A DNA stretch of 38,036 bases from Oscillospiraceae bacterium (GTDB lineage Bacteria; Bacillota; Clostridia; Oscillospirales; CAG-272). Below the pieces are notes generated by a model. It was given only the letters and a program-made list of their open reading frames with translations, did no database searches and was not told the origin of the DNA. Shown here piece after piece: positions 384-17,578 of the stretch. The DNA lies in assembly GCA_015064735.1 (NCBI GenBank), contig SVRP01000006.1, positions 1 to 38,036 on the forward strand, read 5' to 3'. The translations under genes were made by a program, and so were the position numbers. Position 1 is the stretch's first letter. Each line of letters opens with the position of its first letter.

Positions 384-3254
384 TTAGTTTGCCTGAGCAA
401 GGAATTCGTCCATAAAGTCAAGGCTTTCATTTATTGTAGCCTTGTACTGGGTGTATGCCGTCTCAAAGTTGGTAGAACCGGGGTTGCTTAAATTATTGAG
501 GAGAGGTCCTCTCCAAATCTTGTTACGGATATAACCGGTAGCCTGTGCGTAAATATCAGCATAGTCCCAACGAGCGCCGTTAATAATAAGAGTAAATACA
601 TCGAAAGAGTTCTTGTCAAGGATCTGTCCCTTAACGATCTTCTCTATGTAGAAAGGACGAACGTTATCGTAGCTGAGAGAGTTAAACTTCTCCATAACAG
701 CACTTATCAAGCCGTAATCAAAGGTAGCATTGAAGGCTACACCCGTTATGTTGTGAGCATCCTGTACACCGGTGTAATACTCGCCCTGGTCGGTATCATA
801 CATAGGCATAGGAAGAACACCGAATCCGTCTTCCATGTTCTTGAGTTGTTCAAGACCCGATTCATAGTGGTAAACTACGTCGATGTCAAAGAGCGCATGA
901 CCCTGAGTAAAGAAATCATAGTTTGCTCCGGAGCCATTGATTGCTATGGTTCCGTCGGTAGCCCAGAACTCAGCAACCTTACTAAATGCATTCGAAGTCT
1001 TGGTGTAGTTGGCATCGCTTACGAGGACTCTCTTGTCGGTATCTCCGTCCTTCTGTGTCAATTTTGCATTGAACGCATAAAGGAAACCGTCGCAGAACTC
1101 AGCGCCCTTGATCGATGCGAGGCCGTAGAAGTCATCGCTTTCGTCGGTGGTACCGTTATCCTCGTGGATATCAGCAACCATCTCGTAAAGGACGTCGTAC
1201 GTCCATTCCTTATCAAGAACCATCTGGTAGAGCTGGTCGAAGTCACCGAGACGCTCGGTAGCCTTTGCCTTGTTAAAGAATACAACGTGGCAACGGTCGA
1301 AAACGGAAAGGTTAACGTCACCAACCGCGAGGAAGAGCTTATCGTAGCACTCTGCTTCGCTTATGAAATTCTGATTCCAGTAAGGCTGGTCAAGATTCAT
1401 ATTATAAAGCTGAGCGTTACGAAGGTTCATAAATCCTCCGATGTTGTTCATGGTTCCTGCGTATGCAGCATAGTTACTTATGATATGGAACTGACCTGCT
1501 CCGCTCTTGAAATCTCTCAGAATAAGGTCGTTCATCTTGTCATCAGCTTCGGTATTCTTATAAAGATTGAGTCTTACGTTAAGCTGAGTCTGAACGTCTG
1601 CGTTACGCTTGAAGATAGCTGTCTGGAGATTATCGGGTTCTGTAGTGTCAGATGTCCACTCTCTCATATACTGCTCAGCCGATCTGATGAGAACCGTTAC
1701 CGTTTCACCGTCAAAGGTGTCAGCGGGTATGTCAATCGTAACCACTGAACCGTTAAGATAAACCTTTCCTATATTCCATGCAGGATTTGCGTACTTATTA
1801 CCAAAGGAAATAGCGTTAAATTTATCAAGGTCTGTAATATCTATTCTCTCGATTGCCTTACAACCGACAAACGCATTCATACCTATTGCTGTTACAGCCA
1901 TAGGAATATTTATTGTCTTAAGAGAAGCACATTCCGCAAACGCTCCCGCGCCTATTGTAGTTACCTTTGCGGGAATATTTACCGTTTCAAGAGAGCTACA
2001 GCCGCTAAAGGTATTATCCTTTATTTCGGTAATATTCTTGGATACGTATACCGTCTTAAGCTTGGGGCAATTCTCGAATGCTCCTGCGCCTATGCTCTTT
2101 ACGCTGTCGGGAATGAGAATAGACGTAAGATTTTCGCAGTTTGCAAAGCCGTTTCCAATGATAGCCGTTACAGCCTTGCCCTTATGCTTTGAAGGAACTT
2201 CTATTACGTCCATCATTATGGAGTTACCGACGCTTACGGCATAAGTGCCGTCCGGCTGTATAAAGAAATCAAGATCGGATTCAAGATAAGAGATAGACTC
2301 CTTGAGCTTTTCGATTTCAGCCTCGTAGAACTCTTCAAGAGCCTTGAGAGCATCTTCGTTTGCCTTATTCTTTGCCGCAAGCTCTGCAACCTTTGCGTTG
2401 TAGGCATCGGTAAGAGCCTTGATTGCGTTTGCGTTGGTCGTATCGGCATTCTGGAGCTGGGTTATGAGGGTGTTGATCTCACCGATCTCTTTTTCGGTAT
2501 CAGCTTTAACTTGATTTATTTTCGCTTCAAGCTCGGTTTCAAGATTGGAAATAGCCGTCTCATTTGCGCTTATCTTTCCGTTAAGCTCGGCAACCTTTGC
2601 TTCATAAGCGGTCTTGTGAGCGTTAAGTGCGTTTGTGTTTTCGGTTATCTTATTATTAAGCTCTGTAACCTTTGCGTTGTATGCGGTGGTGAGAGCATCA
2701 ATTGCCGCCTTGTTGTCGGTGTCAGCCTTTTGAAGCTTTGCAAGCTCTGCTTCGTACGCCGCCTTGTGAGCCACGAGAGCGTCTGCGTTTGCTTTATCAG
2801 CCGCTTCAAGCTCTTTTACCTTTGCATTGTATGTAGCAGTAAGAGCATCTATTGCCGCCTTGTTGTCGGTATCGGCTTTTTGAAGCTTTGCAAGCTCTGC
2901 TTCGTACGCCGCCTTGTGAGCCGCGAGAGCGTCTGCGTTCGCCTTGTCTGCATCTTCAAGCTCTTTTACCTTTGCGTTGTAAGCGGTAGTAAGAGCTTTT
3001 AGCTCCTCCTTTGCTTCATCGCTACTCTTTTCAAGAATGGCGATCTTTGCTTCACAAACAGCCCTCAAGCTACTGATTTCGGTAAGTGCTACATCGTTTT
3101 TAGCGGTTACCTCGGCTTTAAGGGTATTTACAAAACCGTCAACCTCAGTTTTTGTGTAGCCGTTGCTACTACTCACCTGATCCAAGCACGACGTCATGGA
3201 AAATACAGATGCGCACATGAGAATTGCGAGAACTACGGATAAAAGTTTTTTCAT
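384..3254 (-). CDS. Lipoprotein fusing coiled-coil repeats, BspA-type LRR and extracellular solute-binding domain
   Basis: 956 residues. The start is set at 3254 by an AAAGGAG site at 3261-3267; a longer in-frame start at 3293 lacks one and would spoil the signal peptide. Residues 1-23 are a lipoprotein signal with lipobox MTSC (Cys23). Residues about 35-330 are Ala/Lys/Glu-rich coiled coil, including a nearly exact 50-residue tandem repeat. Residues about 335-510 contain four or five BspA-type leucine-rich repeats (LRR_5) with the IPxxVxxIGxxAFxxC pattern. Residues about 515-956 resemble family 1 extracellular solute-binding proteins. The product is probably tethered outside the membrane, with the binding domain held away on a rod. 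No ABC permease or ATPase gene is adjacent, so a transport partner is unknown. It has its own near-perfect promoter at 3414-3442. The domain combination is unusual; each domain assignment is by pattern only. Confidence 0.8.
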   Translation of the reverse strand: MKKLLSVVLAILMCASVFSMTSCLDQVSSSNGYTKTEVDGFVNTLKAEVTAKNDVALTEISSLRAVCEAKIAILEKSSDEAKEELKALTTAYNAKVKELEDADKANADALAAHKAAYEAELAKLQKADTDNKAAIDALTATYNAKVKELEAADKANADALVAHKAAYEAELAKLQKADTDNKAAIDALTTAYNAKVTELNNKITENTNALNAHKTAYEAKVAELNGKISANETAISNLETELEAKINQVKADTEKEIGEINTLITQLQNADTTNANAIKALTDAYNAKVAELAAKNKANEDALKALEEFYEAEIEKLKESISYLESDLDFFIQPDGTYAVSVGNSIMMDVIEVPSKHKGKAVTAIIGNGFANCENLTSILIPDSVKSIGAGAFENCPKLKTVYVSKNITEIKDNTFSGCSSLETVNIPAKVTTIGAGAFAECASLKTINIPMAVTAIGMNAFVGCKAIERIDITDLDKFNAISFGNKYANPAWNIGKVYLNGSVVTIDIPADTFDGETVTVLIRSAEQYMREWTSDTTEPDNLQTAIFKRNADVQTQLNVRLNLYKNTEADDKMNDLILRDFKSGAGQFHIISNYAAYAGTMNNIGGFMNLRNAQLYNMNLDQPYWNQNFISEAECYDKLFLAVGDVNLSVFDRCHVVFFNKAKATERLGDFDQLYQMVLDKEWTYDVLYEMVADIHEDNGTTDESDDFYGLASIKGAEFCDGFLYAFNAKLTQKDGDTDKRVLVSDANYTKTSNAFSKVAEFWATDGTIAINGSGANYDFFTQGHALFDIDVVYHYESGLEQLKNMEDGFGVLPMPMYDTDQGEYYTGVQDAHNITGVAFNATFDYGLISAVMEKFNSLSYDNVRPFYIEKIVKGQILDKNSFDVFTLIINGARWDYADIYAQATGYIRNKIWRGPLLNNLSNPGSTNFETAYTQYKATINESLDFMDEFLAQAN
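2701..3000 (-). repeat. 150-bp in-frame tandem repeat (two copies) inside the lipoprotein coiled coil
   Basis: Two adjacent 150-bp segments (2701-2850 and 2851-3000) are about 90% identical and encode the 50-residue unit with DKANADAL, HKAAYEAEL and YNAKV motifs. The period is a multiple of three, so copy-number change would lengthen or shorten the rod without a frameshift. More diverged units continue on both sides (for example at 2380-2450 and 2590-2700). Confidence 0.85.
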
Positions 3255-7332: not shown

Positions 7333-8007
7333 ATGGAACTCAAAGGAAAAGTAATTAATTTTCTTGGAGACAGTATTACCGAGGGTGTAGGCGTTTCGGA
7401 TATTCCCAACTGCCGTTACGATAACGTGCTTCACAGGAGATTCGATCTTGCCGGACACAACAACTACGGCATAGGCGGCACCCGTCTTGCCTATCAGGAA
7501 AGCCCCAGTGAAAAGCCCGCTCACGACCTCTATTTCCTCGGCAGAGCGCACAAGATGACCTCTAAAGCCGACATGGTAGTCGTTTACGGCGGCGTTAACG
7601 ACTATATCCACGGCGACGCGTATTTCGGAACCATGGACGACAGAACCCCCACCACCTTCTGCGGAGCTGTATGGTGTCTTATGGACTACCTCACCACCGC
7701 ATACGAGGGCAAGCCCATAGTATTCATGACCCCTGCTCATATGCATTTCAAGGGTGTTTCGGATAAGGAAGTATCTCCCCGCCCCATGAAGAAGCCCGAC
7801 GCAAAGCCCCTCCAGGCATACGTTGACGTTATCAAGGCAAGAGGCAAGGAATTCAACATCCCCGTTCTCGACCTCTTTGAAAATCTCGGTATCGACCCCA
7901 ACAACGAGGAGCAGAGAGAAAAGTACACCGTTGACGGCCTCCACTTCAACAATGAGGGACAGGCGTTCCTTGCAAAGGCTCTCGGAGATTTTATCGAGGC
8001 GCTTTGA
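7333..8007 (+). CDS. SGNH/GDSL-family hydrolase (esterase/lipase-like)
   Basis: 224 residues, preceded by AAGGAG at 7317-7322. SGNH blocks are all present: GDSITEG (block I, nucleophile Ser) near residue 13-19, GIGGTRLA (block II Gly), YGGVNDY (block III Asn) and DGLHFNNEG (block V Asp and His). Length and lack of a signal peptide fit a cytosolic esterase or acetylesterase of the carbohydrate-esterase type. It is the second gene of a two-gene unit with the EEP enzyme and ends at a strong hairpin terminator. The true ester substrate cannot be inferred. Confidence 0.9.
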   Translation: MELKGKVINFLGDSITEGVGVSDIPNCRYDNVLHRRFDLAGHNNYGIGGTRLAYQESPSEKPAHDLYFLGRAHKMTSKADMVVVYGGVNDYIHGDAYFGTMDDRTPTTFCGAVWCLMDYLTTAYEGKPIVFMTPAHMHFKGVSDKEVSPRPMKKPDAKPLQAYVDVIKARGKEFNIPVLDLFENLGIDPNNEEQREKYTVDGLHFNNEGQAFLAKALGDFIEAL

Positions 8008-8030
8008 TTTAAGTATCAATTCACATAAAA

Positions 8031-8064
8031 CAGAGCTGTCTCAATTTGAGACAGCTCCGTTTTG
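8031..8064. terminator. Bidirectional intrinsic terminator
   Basis: Perfect inverted repeat with arms GAGCTGTCTCAA (8033-8044) and its complement (8046-8057), flanked by AAAAC and CGTTTTG. It sits between the convergent SGNH hydrolase and DUF11 genes. Confidence 0.85.
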
Positions 8065-8078
8065 CTCTAAAGCTTAAA

Positions 8079-8930
8079 TCAGATAATACCCGTAACTGCA
8101 AGTGTAGTCGTTCCGGGGATCACGGTATAGCTTCCGTCGGGATTCTGAACGTAGGTGGCTTCGGGTACTGTGATAACTCCCGACACGGTTTCAAAGAGAC
8201 CTGTGGTCTCATTGTAGGTGTACTGTGTCGTGGGAGAGAGAGGCGTTCCGTCAAGGGTTACCGAGCTGATATCAAGAATAGGGTCAAAAAGGTCGGTAAC
8301 AACTACATCGTCGGTAGCGACTGTCGCTCTGTTGCCGCTATTGGATATAACGAAGGTATAAACTATCTCCCCATTATCAAGCACCGTAAGAGGTGAGAGA
8401 GCCTTGTTTATAGAAAGATAGGGCGCATTACGCACCGTTACTGTTTCATCTGCGGTTAGATTTTCGATAAGTCCGCCGCCCGTTACGGTTACAGTATTGG
8501 TTACCGTTTCACCAACCGCAAGAGGCGCAAATGAATTAGTCTGTGCCTCATAGATTATAGTTGCGTTTCCGCCTGCGGGAATATTTATTCCGCTGAATAC
8601 GAGAGGGGGTCCGTCTACTACCGCGGGAGCTGTCTGGGGTGTTCCGTTTATAAGGTAAAGAAGTGAGCCTTCAACGTAGGTCAGAGGATAAACTGTGGTC
8701 GTATCAAAAGCATATCCGCCGAGATCATCGGATACGACAAGTCCCGTAAGGGCGGTAGTTCCCGCATTTACAAGGCTTATAACGTAGGTTATTACCGACT
8801 CGGGTCCATAGCTGTCGGGAAGCGCTATCTTACTGACGGTAAGCAGCTCCGTATAGCTACCCGTTACGGTATTTGAATCCACCGTTATTCCGTTATAGGA
8901 AAGAGTGGCTTTATTGGTAAAGATTGGCAT
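8079..8930 (-). CDS. DUF11 repeat-domain protein (surface or spore-type, no signal peptide)
   Basis: 283 residues; start at 8930 is supported by AAGGAG at 8938-8943 with 7-nt spacing. An in-frame extension to 9002 has no such site. The protein begins MPIFTNKATLSYNG and is rich in Thr, Val, Gly, Asn and Pro. Two DUF11-type beta-sandwich units are visible: about residues 30-160 (DSYGPESVITYVISLVNAG, then AVGETVTNT) and about 175-283 (LSINKALSPL, DNGEIVYTF). DUF11 domains usually occur in secreted surface proteins, but this protein lacks a signal peptide, membrane segment or sorting signal. In Clostridia short proteins of this kind are common and of unknown function. No clear promoter was found. 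Confidence 0.75.
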   Translation of the reverse strand: MPIFTNKATLSYNGITVDSNTVTGSYTELLTVSKIALPDSYGPESVITYVISLVNAGTTALTGLVVSDDLGGYAFDTTTVYPLTYVEGSLLYLINGTPQTAPAVVDGPPLVFSGINIPAGGNATIIYEAQTNSFAPLAVGETVTNTVTVTGGGLIENLTADETVTVRNAPYLSINKALSPLTVLDNGEIVYTFVISNSGNRATVATDDVVVTDLFDPILDISSVTLDGTPLSPTTQYTYNETTGLFETVSGVITVPEATYVQNPDGSYTVIPGTTTLAVTGII

Positions 8931-9153: not shown

Positions 9154-10518
9154 ATGAACAATAATCCAAATCAGACAAGAACGCCAAACGGTCAGCAAAA
9201 CAGACCGCAGACGGGTCAAAGACCTCCTATGCAGGGACAGAGACCTCCCATGCAAGGACAGAGACCTCCAATGCAAGGACAGAGACCTCCAATGCAAGGG
9301 CAGAGACCTCCCATGCAAGGACAGAGACCTCCAATGCAAGGGCAGAGACCTCCCATGCAAGGGCAGAGACCTCCAATGCAAGGGCAAAGACCCCCTATGA
9401 ACGGTCCGCAGAATCGCAGATCCGCTCCTAAAAAGTCAAATAAAACGCTTATAATTGCTTTGATCTCTATTCTTGTCGTTGCGATCATCGGCGGACTTAT
9501 TGCAATGACTATAGTTCTTGTCAATAACGGGAACGGCTCTACTACGGAAAACGCGGGTGGCTCTGCGGGTAAAAAGCCAAGTACAAATAAACCGCCAAAG
9601 GACACAAGGCCTGAGGTTGAATATACCATTTCCCTACCCTCTGCCACACAAAGCGGAGTAAACGTAAATTATTCCGCACCCGCGGAGGAGATAAGCGGAA
9701 TTGCATCACAAGCAGCTGTACTTATCGACATGAGTAACGGAAACGCTGTAGCGGGTAAAAATTCCGACACAAGAATCTATCCCGCATCTATGACCAAGGT
9801 AATGACCCTTCTTGTAGCCTGCGAAAAAGCTCCCAATGCCGGCAAGCTCCTGACTGTCGAGCAATGGATGATCGATTATCAGCAGAGCAACAAGGCTTCG
9901 GGTATTATGGGATTTGTTGCCGGAGATCAGATAAGTGTTGAGAGCGCACTTTATCTTATAAATTACACGTCGGATACCATTGCATGTCTTCTTATTGCAG
10001 ATTACATAGCCGGAAGCGAAGCCGATTTTGTGTCTCTGATGAATCAGAAGGCGGTTGATTTAGGACTTAAGGATACCCATTTTGTAAACACTACGGGACT
10101 CCAGGACGCAAATCACTATACCACCTGCCGTGAAATGGCTATCATAATGAACGAGGCTATGAAAAATCCCACGGCAAAGAAGATAATCACCTCCTACGTG
10201 GGAACGACCGTTGACATATACAGTGGCTATGAAAGCGGAAACACAGACCCATACAGACAGCCTACCATCTACTCGTCGTGGTACAGCGAGAGAATGGGAA
10301 ACGACCCGAAAGTCAACAGCAATATTACCGTTATCGGCGGCAAGACCGGCTATGAAGATATCCCTACAGGTTGCTTTGTAACGGTTGCAAAAAATGCTTC
10401 AAACGGTAAGCAGTACATATGCGTCAACGTTGGACGTATAGACGAAACACAAACAGAGGTTTCGTCTTCACAGTCCACCAAGGATAGCATAACAATTTAT
10501 AAGAATTACGCAAAATAA
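9154..10518 (+). CDS. Membrane-anchored serine-type D-Ala-D-Ala carboxypeptidase (S11 family) with cytoplasmic QRPPMQG repeats
   Basis: 454 residues, AAGGAA site at 9142-9147. Residues 22-84 are nine tandem seven-residue units QRPPMQG. Residues about 97-123 form one transmembrane helix, so the repeat tail is probably cytoplasmic and the enzyme domain (about 165-454) outside. The S11 active site shows SMTK (Ser212-Lys215) and KTG (397-399). At the position of the usual SxN motif the protein reads SDT (273-275) within NYTSDTIACLL, so the Asn is replaced. The family trims the terminal D-Ala of peptidoglycan pentapeptides, limiting crosslinks. Most relatives have a cleavable signal and a C-terminal anchor; an N-terminal anchor with a basic, Pro-rich tail is unusual. 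The gene has its own promoter and terminator. Altered activity or substrate is possible. Confidence 0.85.
   Translation: MNNNPNQTRTPNGQQNRPQTGQRPPMQGQRPPMQGQRPPMQGQRPPMQGQRPPMQGQRPPMQGQRPPMQGQRPPMQGQRPPMNGPQNRRSAPKKSNKTLIIALISILVVAIIGGLIAMTIVLVNNGNGSTTENAGGSAGKKPSTNKPPKDTRPEVEYTISLPSATQSGVNVNYSAPAEEISGIASQAAVLIDMSNGNAVAGKNSDTRIYPASMTKVMTLLVACEKAPNAGKLLTVEQWMIDYQQSNKASGIMGFVAGDQISVESALYLINYTSDTIACLLIADYIAGSEADFVSLMNQKAVDLGLKDTHFVNTTGLQDANHYTTCREMAIIMNEAMKNPTAKKIITSYVGTTVDIYSGYESGNTDPYRQPTIYSSWYSERMGNDPKVNSNITVIGGKTGYEDIPTGCFVTVAKNASNGKQYICVNVGRIDETQTEVSSSQSTKDSITIYKNYAK
9217..9405 (+). repeat. 21-bp coding tandem repeat, nine units
   Basis: Nine in-frame 21-bp units each encode QRPPMQG (the last ends in NG). 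Differences between copies are confined to silent positions (CCC/CCA/CCT, CAG/CAA, GGA/GGG), and adjacent units are nearly identical. This suggests recent expansion by slippage or unequal recombination, with copy number free to vary in frame. Confidence 0.95.
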
Positions 10519-10720: not shown

Positions 10721-10750
10721 ATGCATATCAACATAAAAAGGAGCAGGAAA

Positions 10751-11533
10751 ATGGAAATAAACACGAAAATACTTATAGCTGACGAAAATCCCGCGGGCAG
10801 ACAAGCTCTCTGTAACGAGCTAAAAAAGGCGGGATATAAAAATATAGAGGAGGCGGCAAACGGCGAAGAAGCTCTTATAAAAATAGGACGCTACCATCCC
10901 GACGTGGCAATACTTGACGTATGGCTCTCAAAGCTTGACGGAATAGGAGTGTTGAGAAATTGCAGATCACTTCATTTCGGAGACGATCTTCCACCTGCTT
11001 TTATTATAGTTTCTATGGTTTCAAATCAGAGCATATTTATGGAAGCGGCGCGTGCGGGAGCCGACCTTTGTCTGCTAAAGCCATACAATATCGAAAGTCT
11101 TTGCCAGCATATACAGTCTCTTTCGGCAGGCAGATATATGATAGCCGAGCCCGTACAGCAGGAGCAGGCCGACAGCGTTCCCGATATCGAAACTCAGGTA
11201 ACGAGAATTATTCACCAGATAGGCGTACCCGCGCATATCAAGGGATATCAGTACCTGCGTACTGCAATTTTGCTGACCATCAAGGATAGCGACATGATAA
11301 ACTCGGTTACAAAGGTCCTCTACCCTTCCGTGGCAAAGAAATACCAGACCACCACAAGCCGAGTTGAGCGCGCTATTCGCCACGCAATCGAGGTGGCGTG
11401 GGACAGAGGCGACGTGGATACTCTGAATTCTTATTTCGGATATACCATTCAAAACACCCGCGGTAAGCCCACAAACAGCGAGTTTATTGCGATGATAGCT
11501 GACAACCTCAGACTGAAATATAAGCTGTATTAA
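10751..11533 (+). CDS. spo0A: Sporulation master regulator Spo0A
   Basis: 260 residues, the usual length; start at 10751 has AAGGAG at 10738-10743. Residues 1 to about 125 are a response-regulator receiver domain with acidic pair Asp11/Glu12, phosphoacceptor Asp56 (AILDVW) and Lys110 (LLKPY). Residues about 148-260 are the Spo0A DNA-binding domain, including [16 protein letters not shown], the recognition-helix region [17 protein letters not shown] and the ending KYKLY. Phosphorylated Spo0A switches cells into sporulation in Bacilli and Clostridia. Its presence is good evidence that the host belongs to an endospore-forming lineage. The gene stands alone; spoIVB, its usual upstream neighbour, is absent here. 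Immediately after its stop lies a tandem array repeating its own last 22 codons. Confidence 0.97.
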
Positions 11534-12136
11534 TAATAGCCTTCCCCAGTGGGGGAAGGGGGACCGCGTGAGCGGTGGATGAGGTGTTTAAAATGCGTAA
11601 AGGACTCCTCATCCGTCAGCCTTCGGCTGCCACCTTCTCCCACAGGAGAAGGCTTCTGTATCGAAAAGCCCACAAACAGTGAGTTTATTGCGATGATTGC
11701 TGACAACCTCAGACTGAAATATAAGCTGTATTAATAATAGCCTTCCCCAGTGGGGGAAGGGGGACCGCGTGAGCGGTGGATGAGGTGTTTAAAATGCGTA
11801 AAGGACTCCTCATCCGTCAGCCTTAGGCTGCCACCTTCTCCCACAGGAGAAGGCTTCTGTATCGAAAAGCCCACAAACAGCGAGTTTATTGCGATGATAG
11901 CTGACAACCTCAGACTGAAATATAAGCTGTATTAATAATAGCCTTCCCCAGTGGGGGAAGGGGGACCGCGTGAGCGGTGGATGAGGTGTTTAAAATGCGT
12001 AAAGGACTCCTCATCCGTCAGCCTTCGGCTGCCACCTTCTCCCACAGGAGAAGGCTTCTGTATCGAAAAGCCCACAAACAGTGAGTTTATTGCTATGATT
12101 GCGGATAATTTGAGGCTCAAGTACAAACTCTATTAA
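11465..12136 (+). repeat. Tandem array of 201-bp units: spo0A tail plus 132-bp hairpin element
   Basis: The last 69 bp of spo0A (11465-11533, codons for KPTNSEFI...KYKLY and stop) are followed by a 132-bp element (11534-11665). The pair is then repeated with exact 201-bp spacing. Tail copies lie at 11465-11533, 11666-11734, 11867-11935 and 12068-12136; elements at 11534-11665, 11735-11866 and 11936-12067. The element starts with GCCTTCCCC/GGGGGAAGG and ends CTTCTCCC/GGAGAAGGC, with CCGC/GCGG and CATCCGTCAGCC/TTCGGC hairpins between. Tails 1 and 3 are identical, tail 2 has two changes, and tail 4 differs from tail 1 at 15 positions, all synonymous. The 201-bp period keeps the reading frame. 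The element belongs to the same repeat family as 31485-31536 and 31631-31686. Confidence 0.95.
12068..12136 (+). pseudogene. Displaced, synonymously diverged spo0A 3' end (fourth tail copy)
   Basis: 69 bp encoding the same 22 C-terminal residues of Spo0A plus stop, but with 13 of 22 sense codons changed silently relative to the tail now joined to the gene. Only this copy lacks a following hairpin element. It is instead followed by a unique sequence with an intrinsic terminator at 12177-12229. It therefore looks like the original chromosomal end of spo0A, or the relic of a second spo0A gene, now separated from its gene by the array. Confidence 0.7.
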
Positions 12137-12176
12137 GTTTTATAAAATAAGGGGACTTGACACTTGTAATACAATA

Positions 12177-12229
12177 AACACTCTTGATTTATTGGGTACT
12201 GAAAATCCAAGAATCAGGAGTGTTTTTTT
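12177..12229 (+). terminator. Intrinsic terminator downstream of the spo0A array
   Basis: 13-bp stem AACACTCTTGATT (12177-12189) pairing with 12212-12224 (one G-T wobble), loop of 22 nt, then a T run to 12229. Probably the ancestral spo0A terminator. The rest of the gap 12137-12437 holds no convincing gene. Confidence 0.75.
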
Positions 12230-12373
12230 CTATGTTTAATTATCACCTTGATTTCCAACTTCACGACTTTATACGCCGATGCCACACGGCAATTGCGATA
12301 ATGATCCGCGCGTGGAAAGCCGAAGAATTTTCATTTACAATTCACGGTTGTATTAATTACACCTTTCAGATGG

Positions 12374-16213: not shown

Positions 16214-16867
16214 ATGTTTTGTAAAAATTGTGGAACCAACATTGGAGACGCAAGATTTTGCCCCAATTGTGGTACAAACATTAACGGTGAACCGTTCATC
16301 TCACCGGAACCCGAGCACGCACCTGTAGCCGTAGAAAACAGTGCATCTCGAAAAAGGAGCTTGTCGTTTATACTGTATACCGTTTTAGGTGGCTTTACAA
16401 TAGGATCTTTTTTTATTTCAAAATTCTCCACCTGCCTCAACGAAGAGTTCTGGAGCTCCAGATATTACGGATATGGCCAAGAAAAGCTTTCTTCCAGCAC
16501 AACAAACTGTAGTTTTTGGGATTTCACCTTCTTGTCTTCATCAAGCATTTGGGCAATTATAGCTATACTACTTTTTGCTACAACTATTATACTGTCATTT
16601 GCTAATTTCTTCGCAAGAAAAAAGTCAATTTCGGTTATCAATACAGTATTTTCTTCCGTTTCTTTTGTTTATATGCTTGTAATGCCCTTAGTTTCAACTC
16701 ACTATCATTGCAATGAATTTACCTCTTACGGTATAACAAAAACATACGTACATAGCCTTGTGTCATTTGACGTACTGTTCTACGTTACCCTCGCAATTTC
16801 CGCTTTTCTGGTAGTCGTATCTATATTTGATACCGCCAACAAGCCTTTGATCAAATTGTCGAAATAA
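16214..16867 (+). CDS. Zinc-ribbon membrane protein (unknown function)
   Basis: 217 residues with AGGAG at 16201-16205. The N-terminus is a zinc ribbon: CKNC (Cys3, Cys6) and CPNC (Cys16, Cys19). It is followed by a linker and about four transmembrane segments (roughly residues 50-70, 112-135, 142-165 and 180-207). Zinc-ribbon membrane proteins of this layout are common in Clostridia and poorly understood. It probably shares the transcript of the preceding Cys-tailed membrane protein and so the XRE-controlled promoter. A GC-rich hairpin with T-rich trailer follows at 16886. Confidence 0.75.
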   Translation: MFCKNCGTNIGDARFCPNCGTNINGEPFISPEPEHAPVAVENSASRKRSLSFILYTVLGGFTIGSFFISKFSTCLNEEFWSSRYYGYGQEKLSSSTTNCSFWDFTFLSSSSIWAIIAILLFATTIILSFANFFARKKSISVINTVFSSVSFVYMLVMPLVSTHYHCNEFTSYGITKTYVHSLVSFDVLFYVTLAISAFLVVVSIFDTANKPLIKLSK

Positions 16868-16885
16868 CGCCTATACACCGAGAAA

Positions 16886-16920
16886 CCGCCGCACCCTCAT
16901 GGATGCGGCGGCATTTTATT
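16886..16920. terminator. Intrinsic terminator between the zinc-ribbon gene and the phosphodiesterase fragment
   Basis: Arms CCGCCGCA (16886-16893) and TGCGGCGG (16904-16911), followed by CATTTTATTTTT. An almost identical hairpin follows the next cassette at 18293, so the terminator was part of the duplicated segment. Confidence 0.7.
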
Positions 16921-16927
16921 TTTCACT

Positions 16928-17172
16928 TCAAAGCTCTATTTCCTTATAAACCTTACCCTCAAGGTTACAGAATTTCATTCTGCGGTTTTCGTACAGTATA
17001 TATCCCTTTTCGGAGTTTTCCTTGGGTATGGATACCGAGCCGGGGTTTATATAGATATTGTCGTTGCCAAAAGGAATCGCCACGGGCACGTGGGTATGTC
17101 CGTGCAGAAGAATATCGCCTTTTCTGAGGGGGGCGGGTTATCCGTGTTGAATTTATGTCCGTGAGTTACAAA
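16928..17172 (-). pseudogene. Truncated, frameshifted copy of the YfcE-like phosphodiesterase gene
   Basis: About 245 bp nearly identical to the 3' end of the intact gene at 18339-18584, including the same stop. Homology stops abruptly at GTGAGTTACAAA, just before the duplicated XRE cassette. A run of seven G in the intact gene (about 18538-18545) is one base shorter here (about 17137-17143), shifting the frame. The fragment lacks the N-terminal metal-binding half and cannot be functional. It marks the junction of the duplication that produced the two XRE cassettes. Confidence 0.9.
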
Positions 17173-17425: not shown

Positions 17426-17451
17426 ATTTTATCACATTTTAAAAAATACTC

Positions 17452-17480
17452 TTGACATAGTTATAATATTATGCTACAAT
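17452..17480 (+). promoter_or_regulatory. Promoter of the cassette 2 lipoprotein with decayed operators
   Basis: TTGACA (17452-17457), 17-nt spacer, TACAAT (17475-17480), aligned base for base with the cassette 1 promoter. The two inverted repeats are only partly kept (half-sites GCTACA, TGTAGCA and TGTTAC up to about 17502). Confidence 0.75.
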
Positions 17481-17578
17481 GCATGTGTAGCAGTTTGTTA
17501 CGTTCACTGTGCAAATATCGCTGCATGTAATACAAAATCAAACTATATTTGCCATGTGCAAAAGGAAAGGATCAAAAA

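Follow-up and report, generated by a model that had tools for sequence, protein, structure and literature searches.

The 3′ end of spo0A as a probable attachment site of gene-restoring integrative elements in Clostridia

Integrative elements that carry a tyrosine recombinase and insert at the 3′ ends of housekeeping genes are known, as are their decay to CIMEs and their accretion (described in the sections of PMC5704250 used here). Mobile elements have also been described in sporulation genes, including skin, vfbin, gin, yin and SP-beta (sections of PMC10747680 and PMC5595907). The targets named in the sections of PMC10747680 used here are sigK, spsM, spoVFB, gerE and yabG, and spo0A is not among them. 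Skin-like elements, in the same sections of PMC10747680, interrupt a gene and leave it for function, whereas the element proposed below would restore its gene. A literature search, which was partial with most subscription journals outside it, turned up no account of elements attached at spo0A, so that a prior description is possible. Spo0A decides whether the cell sporulates. We analysed a 38,036-nucleotide stretch of DNA (the window) from an Oscillospiraceae bacterium, in which spo0A is full-length despite an array of repeats at its 3′ end; its coding sequence is thus not interrupted while the array is in place.

The spo0A 3′ end in the window

The window is part of a 144-kb contig (C9) of a 2.11-Mb assembly with 31 contigs. 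The spo0A open reading frame of this contig extends from position 10721 to 11533 on the plus strand, and the ATG at 10751, which lies behind GGAG, is a likelier start than 10721. The product was identified by PF08769 and PF00072 (Pfam) and by the TIGR02875 spore_0_A model, for which it scored above the cut-off (NCBIfam).

As listed in Table 1, the last 22 codons of spo0A and the stop codon (69 bp, hereafter the tail) are present four times, and each tail encodes the same 22 residues. The tails alternate with three 132-bp spacers at an exact period of 201 bp (TRF score 1235, 98% matches). The coordinates and the TRF result agree with the original prediction, which had claimed this arrangement of four tails, three spacers and 201-bp spacing. 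It had also described the first three tails as nearly identical, and indeed tails 1 and 3 are the same and tail 2 differs at two positions. Over the whole 201-bp repeat, units 1 and 3 are identical, and unit 2 departs from them at three positions. Tail 4 has 14 differences from tails 1 and 3 and 12 from tail 2, all of them synonymous; the synonymy had been noted before, while the earlier count of 15 had to be corrected to 14. Since 42 of the 207 single changes possible in tail 1 are synonymous, 14 of 14 would arise by chance with a probability of about 2e-10, which indicates that tail 4, or the sequence from which it came, ended a working spo0A gene not long ago.

Table 1. Positions of the features of the spo0A locus in the window and of the terminal genes of the G644 element
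Feature	Position	Strand	Evidence or remark
spo0A, ending in tail 1	10751..11533	+	Pfam, NCBIfam
Tail 1, functional spo0A 3′ end (22 codons + stop), read as element-supplied	11465..11533	+	
Spacer 1	11534..11665	.	118-bp palindromic MITE-like core 11538-11655; fold z = -6.0
Tail 2	11666..11734	+	2 synonymous differences from tail 1, both common to tail 4
Spacer 2	11735..11866	.	MITE core 11739-11856
Tail 3	11867..11935	+	Identical to tail 1
Spacer 3	11936..12067	.	MITE core 11940-12057
Tail 4	12068..12136	+	Differs synonymously from tail 1 at 14 positions; interpreted as attL of an older element with integrase
Integrase leader, terminator-like hairpin with AAACACTCTTGATTTATTGGG	12168..12233	+	z = -5.9
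Truncated 5′ end of tyrosine-recombinase gene (remnant)	12232..12301	+	Alignment to G310/G377
G644 integrase	7882-8868		Left end of the element
G644 serine resolvase	16472-17074		Right end of the element

The 132-nt spacer has a calculated folding energy of -68.8 kcal/mol. A genome search for this element, which had been proposed as a check, showed that its 118-bp core is dispersed in the assembly. Outside the array, matches of 115-127 bp with 83-92% identity were obtained at four places, together with 19 more match rows that are mostly shorter, and many copies of the core occur also in relatives. The core is MITE-like, being a short, dispersed, palindromic repeat with inverted-repeat ends, and in the window units it lies flush between the stop codon and the next tail. 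No target-site duplication was recognised by eye in the flanks of eight core copies (two partial). At another location (G000:C29 69117-69597), the MITE family is represented by its two end halves with about 380 bp between them, as if a longer, cargo-bearing form existed. Tandem repeats are found also within other genes of the window: a 21-bp repeat with 8.6 copies (9220-9399) in a D-Ala-D-Ala carboxypeptidase-like gene (9154-10518), and a 75/150-bp repeat (2658-3053) in a BspA-type leucine-rich-repeat gene.

The sequence behind tail 4 had been taken for a native terminator. The hairpin is real, but it aligns to the integrase leader of relatives and is probably not native. Positions 12169-12301 of the window scored 82 and 87 in alignments to the leader plus integrase start from G310 and G377, respectively (shuffle maxima 34 and 33), so that the hairpin leader and about 70 bp of an integrase gene sit behind tail 4. 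Alignments confined to the hairpin were obtained with G002 (71; shuffles 32), G352 (50; shuffles 36) and G117 (38; shuffles 28). This remnant is short, and its alignment to G400 is weak (38 vs. 33 in shuffles). The leader of G644 gave no match to that of the window at the DNA level (20 vs. 30 in shuffles), its likeness being in layout only. A 21-bp leader motif, allowing up to two mismatches, is present in 6 of the 395 family genomes. In five of them (the window, G002, G310, G377 and G117) it follows spo0A, and in G352 it lies close to a displaced spo0A tail. For G117, the hairpin is present and no integrase relative was found in the stretch examined. In G002, which belongs to the same genus as the window, the leader directly follows the spo0A tail. 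Of 105 spo0A ends, that of G002 is the only one to match the final 21 bp of tail 4 exactly (next best three differences, median six). Over the whole of tail 4, G002 shows 10 differences and the best of the others nine, and thus G002 is not the nearest. On account of the leader and the truncated integrase start behind it and of the match to G002, we read tail 4 as the attL of an older, gutted element; it is probably the left end of that element rather than an untouched native end.

Integrases and displaced tails behind spo0A in other genomes

Intact tyrosine recombinase genes lie directly behind spo0A in G310 and G400. Their products (329 and 348 aa, 71% identical) match PF00589 at 5e-31 and 2.6e-34, and in G377 the start of an integrase gene is found behind spo0A at the contig end. 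When integrase P0003 (PF00589) was used as query, 2 of 395 family genomes gave matches at E <= 1e-60; these were G310 and G400, both with the gene directly downstream of spo0A. An order-wide search at E <= 1e-45 retrieved 1 of 267 genomes, G644 from another family, where an integrase of 46% identity again directly follows spo0A. One of 80 named loci of close relatives (GTDB r220), L148, carries this integrase, on a contig as long as that of G400. No integrase relative was found in plasmids and phages at E <= 1e-40, and none was confirmed in viral contigs, where the single-protein query reaches close relatives only.

The G644 genome contains an apparently complete element of 9.9 kb with a copy of the spo0A tail on each side. 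These copies (7580-7651 and 17444-17515) are identical over 72 bp through the stop codon and lie 9,864 bp apart, and the second one is preceded by 54 bp more homology with two differences. Among the other genes of the element, with 8 of its 10 ORFs scanned against Pfam, an HNH endonuclease, a zinc-ribbon protein, DUF5050 and RCC1 were recognised, along with weak ResIII and weak Arc-like matches. Since Pfam recognised neither a relaxase nor a conjugation gene among these 8 of 10 ORFs, the element is filed neither as an ICE nor as an IME. The second tail is followed by about 190 bp that resemble, by eye, the left-end leader, and here, too, an element looks to have inserted ahead of an older remnant. 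In G310, there is likewise a serine resolvase gene behind the integrase. The contigs of G310, G400 and G377 stop short of the right end of the element, and direct repeats were seen in G644 only. In G352 (L095:5118-6215, minus strand), an acyltransferase gene (PF01757) has a leader hairpin of the integrase type on one side and a displaced spo0A tail on the other, and it is a possible cargo of an integrase-less element.

Beside the window, displaced spo0A tails on the same contig, mostly decayed, were found in nine genomes from two families. The order in G012 is tail, hairpin repeat, diverged tail and hairpin repeat, and in G759 it is tail, MITE and decayed tail. In G355, three spacers, all different, separate four tails, while G394, G312, G065 and G231 have two tails each. 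In G020, a 1.1-kb insert with a 322-aa ORF is followed by half a tail. The displaced copy is on a contig other than that of the spo0A body in G352 and G220, and in G400 the integrase and a second spo0A end are on different contigs. The displaced tails are nonsynonymously changed in most pairs, and the tail joined to spo0A is intact.

In the family survey, the spo0A tail was detected in 330 of 395 genomes, and 25 with at least two matches were rechecked. Fourteen of these were fetched (left out were G068, G122, G151, G158, G197, G200, G218, G291, G296, G313 and G393), and clear same-contig displaced tails were seen in five of them (G355, G394, G312, G065 and G231). G298 and G232 were dropped because their matches were overlapping contig ends, G280 proved to have one gene only, and G212 was assigned to no class. 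In the 80 named loci, the spo0A tail was recognised in 80 of 80 and a displaced tail in none; the best downstream score there was 44 (L127), which was not counted, the upstream control reaching 40. A strict order-wide pattern search, the pattern of which misses decayed tails, retrieved the window only (1 of 394). Tail displacement at spo0A is thus recurrent, not common. Short ORFs directly behind spo0A in G422 (L093, about 1279-1664) and G143 (L094, minus strand, about 1118-1821) resemble, by eye, the C-terminal DNA-binding domain of Spo0A only, and they are possibly truncated Spo0A paralogues.

As a control, a second copy of the last 22 residues was looked for within 1.5 kb of mechanically chosen ORFs (at least 150 aa, longest non-overlapping). 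The 80 named loci and the window yielded 992 ORFs, or 994 in a rerun with ties broken differently, and 68 of them end like spo0A. Only 1 of 926 non-spo0A ORFs gave a match, a whole-gene tandem paralogue in L151; spo0A itself gave none in the 80 named loci and so behaves like the control genes there. No displaced tail was found for 123 non-spo0A ORFs in 180 kb of G644, whose second spo0A tail, 9.9 kb off, is outside the 1.5-kb reach of the control. The same was true of 46 non-spo0A ORFs from 11 other stretches, the window among them, of genomes in which displaced tails occur, while spo0A was matched in 7 of these 11 stretches (L088-L092, L022 and the window).

Three spacers between tails are not MITEs (L089:954-1096, L090:931-1041 and L088, minus strand, about 1276-1390). 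They resemble small convergent transcription units, with a minus-strand TTGACA-17-TATAAT-like promoter (by eye) and a T-run near the spo0A stop; two of the three were folded and contain a structured stretch (z = -5.1 and -3.5). A known RNA in the spacers was rejected: at E up to 0.1, Rfam gave for eight loci only a tRNA outside the array and a microRNA model far below its gathering score. A phage origin of the tail was also considered and dropped, with 0 matches in an exact degenerate-pattern scan of viral contigs. Searching a phage collection with the tail by tblastn returned 10 records, and all four that were examined have an in-frame spo0A coding region upstream; these four are apparently bacterial sequences within faecal scaffolds that are unverified.

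Empty sites and the origin of the array

Comparison of the spo0A 3′ ends and flanks of relatives, also proposed as a check, revealed empty as well as occupied sites. In genus g60, spo0A of G353 and G189 ends in ...KLN-stop, and behind it come a terminator-like hairpin and a conserved downstream sequence. A flank homologous to that of G353 and G189 lies behind a displaced ...RLN tail in G394 and G231, where spo0A ends in ...KLY-stop. These pairs indicate that the replacement tail changes the last residue and that the displaced end is the native one. Similarly, G400:C2 and G759 have 119 bp of spo0A body and 53 bp of flank exactly in common, and G759 has 197 bp extra between them. This insert is made up of the tail, MITE and decayed tail, and it ends in a repeat of CGATGATCGCGG. 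At the junction in G400:C2, the reading frame stops early (...FIAMIAVEI-stop). The 119-bp overlap at the start of the G400:C2 contig suggests an assembly-graph branch, and the two sequences come from different assemblies. The empty-site comparisons concern the miniature units, not the integrase-bearing element.

The explanation that we consider likely, judging from these sequence comparisons, is that the spo0A 3′ end serves as the attB of a family of gene-restoring integrative elements and that the window holds a decayed element with three stacked CIME-like miniature units. Such a family would have its own tyrosine recombinase, and an incoming element would recombine inside the last spo0A codons, supplying a replacement 3′ end that leaves Spo0A intact and pushing the old end to the far side. 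The window would first have received an older element, consisting of tail 4, the hairpin leader and the integrase, which then lost nearly all but its left end. Later, miniature units of one spo0A tail and one hairpin repeat would have arrived ahead of it, and the unit is now present three times in tandem. We infer here that the recombinase cuts in the tail, that the events took this order, and that the miniature units are CIME-like deletion derivatives either moved in trans or amplified by recombination. It is plausible that the integrase moved the miniature units themselves, which have a tail on both sides and carry neither the integrase nor the leader. The original prediction, replacement of the gene 3′ end by an integrative element, was therefore right in kind, as seen from the spo0A-linked integrases, the G644 element and the empty sites, but its choice of tail 4 as the native end is probably mistaken. 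Its statement that no more than a miniature element was inserted is true of the window, whereas relatives carry integrase-bearing elements. A more far-reaching version, which we regard as doubtful, is that the units of about 200 bp (tail and hairpin) are themselves mobile as cassettes, and that spo0A-specific integrases move them in trans and so build up the arrays. Their loss would then truncate Spo0A as the displaced native tail decays, as might have happened in G400:C2, and the element would become indispensable or act as a sporulation off-switch.

The array might instead have arisen by local duplication, if a MITE inserted behind spo0A and the 201-bp tail and MITE were duplicated in tandem, with the copies diverging afterwards. 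The sequence identity of units 1 and 3, nearly matched by unit 2, indeed suggests that the array of three was probably amplified recently. Moreover, the hairpin repeats of G012 differ at 2 of 132 positions although its tails differ at 10 of 69, and in G412 the MITE lies directly behind the spo0A stop without a second tail. Still, we find this origin quite improbable, as tail 4 is untranslated in Spo0A and yet has 14 synonymous and 0 nonsynonymous differences, and what lies behind it is the integrase leader, not a MITE. In G394 and G231, the displaced tails encode a different C-terminus that matches the empty relatives, and integrases occupy the same site. An assembly artefact of mixed strains was considered as well: many of the relatives are fragmented MAGs, several contigs break at the tail, and G298 and G232 turned out to be overlapping contig ends. 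Against this, the window contig is 144 kb long, and each of the nine other genomes has such an arrangement within a single contig, that of G644 being 574 kb long. Assemblers usually collapse repeats, and the invention of three near-identical 201-bp units would be less expected. We therefore give the artefact hardly any weight.

Homologous or homology-assisted recombination with DNA of other species at the conserved spo0A tail could also add a second tail together with what followed it, and the miniature units would then need no site-specific recombinase. This would suit their lack of an integrase and the variety of the spacers, which include three MITE types (by eye), promoter hairpins, the 1.1-kb insert of G020 and the acyltransferase gene of G352. 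Six displaced tails (window, G012, two in G355, G394 and G231) have their start at one and the same AAGCCC codon or no more than about 9 bp from it; the tail start is decayed near AAGCCC in G312, G065, G759 and the third G355 tail, and G020 starts mid-tail. Homology upstream of the displaced copy amounts to 0 to about 9 bp in most miniature units, but it is about 39 bp in G352, 54 bp in G644 and about 100 bp or more in G220, and the long stretches of body homology in G220 and G352 are as expected from recombination with foreign DNA. The common AAGCCC start favours a defined boundary, but the longer homology in G352, G220 and G644 shows that this boundary differs between cases. A crossover point was not found by common identity, as only ATGAT is identical in every pair, and this is nearly forced by the code. 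Considering also that control ORFs have no displaced tails and that integrase-bearing elements use the same place, we think recombination with foreign DNA rather unlikely and retain the integrative-element explanation.

Comparison with known systems

If the integrative-element explanation is true, the spo0A 3′ end is a safe-harbour attachment site in at least two families of Clostridia, at which the protein is kept intact, and the repeated, synonymously scrambled spo0A ends are accounted for. The site would also offer a direct test of how elements become indispensable after the old gene end decays, and an integrase and site that work would make a possible landing pad for bacteria in which genetic tools are scarce. 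CIMEs described so far are generally remnants of kilobase size, while the window units measure only about 200 bp, with one tail and one MITE, and the att function of the tails is putative. What the units have in common with CIMEs and their tandem accretion, in the sections of PMC5704250 used here, is that they are flanked by putative att copies, lack an integrase and are stacked before an element remnant. The G644 element and the spo0A-linked integrases resemble the integrative, mobilizable and conjugative elements of gene 3′ ends (same sections of PMC5704250) in the integrase beside the att site, the direct repeat with the gene 3′ end and the intact gene, and they differ in the target, here spo0A, the master regulator of sporulation. 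Compared with what are called the MITEs of Clostridia, the window repeat is alike in its size of about 116-118 bp, its palindromic and dispersed nature and its conserved ends, but it is flanked by gene tails in tandem. The class of element is thus already known, and new here are the striking target, the unusually small size of the stacked units and one possible case of a host gene that is broken when its element is lost.
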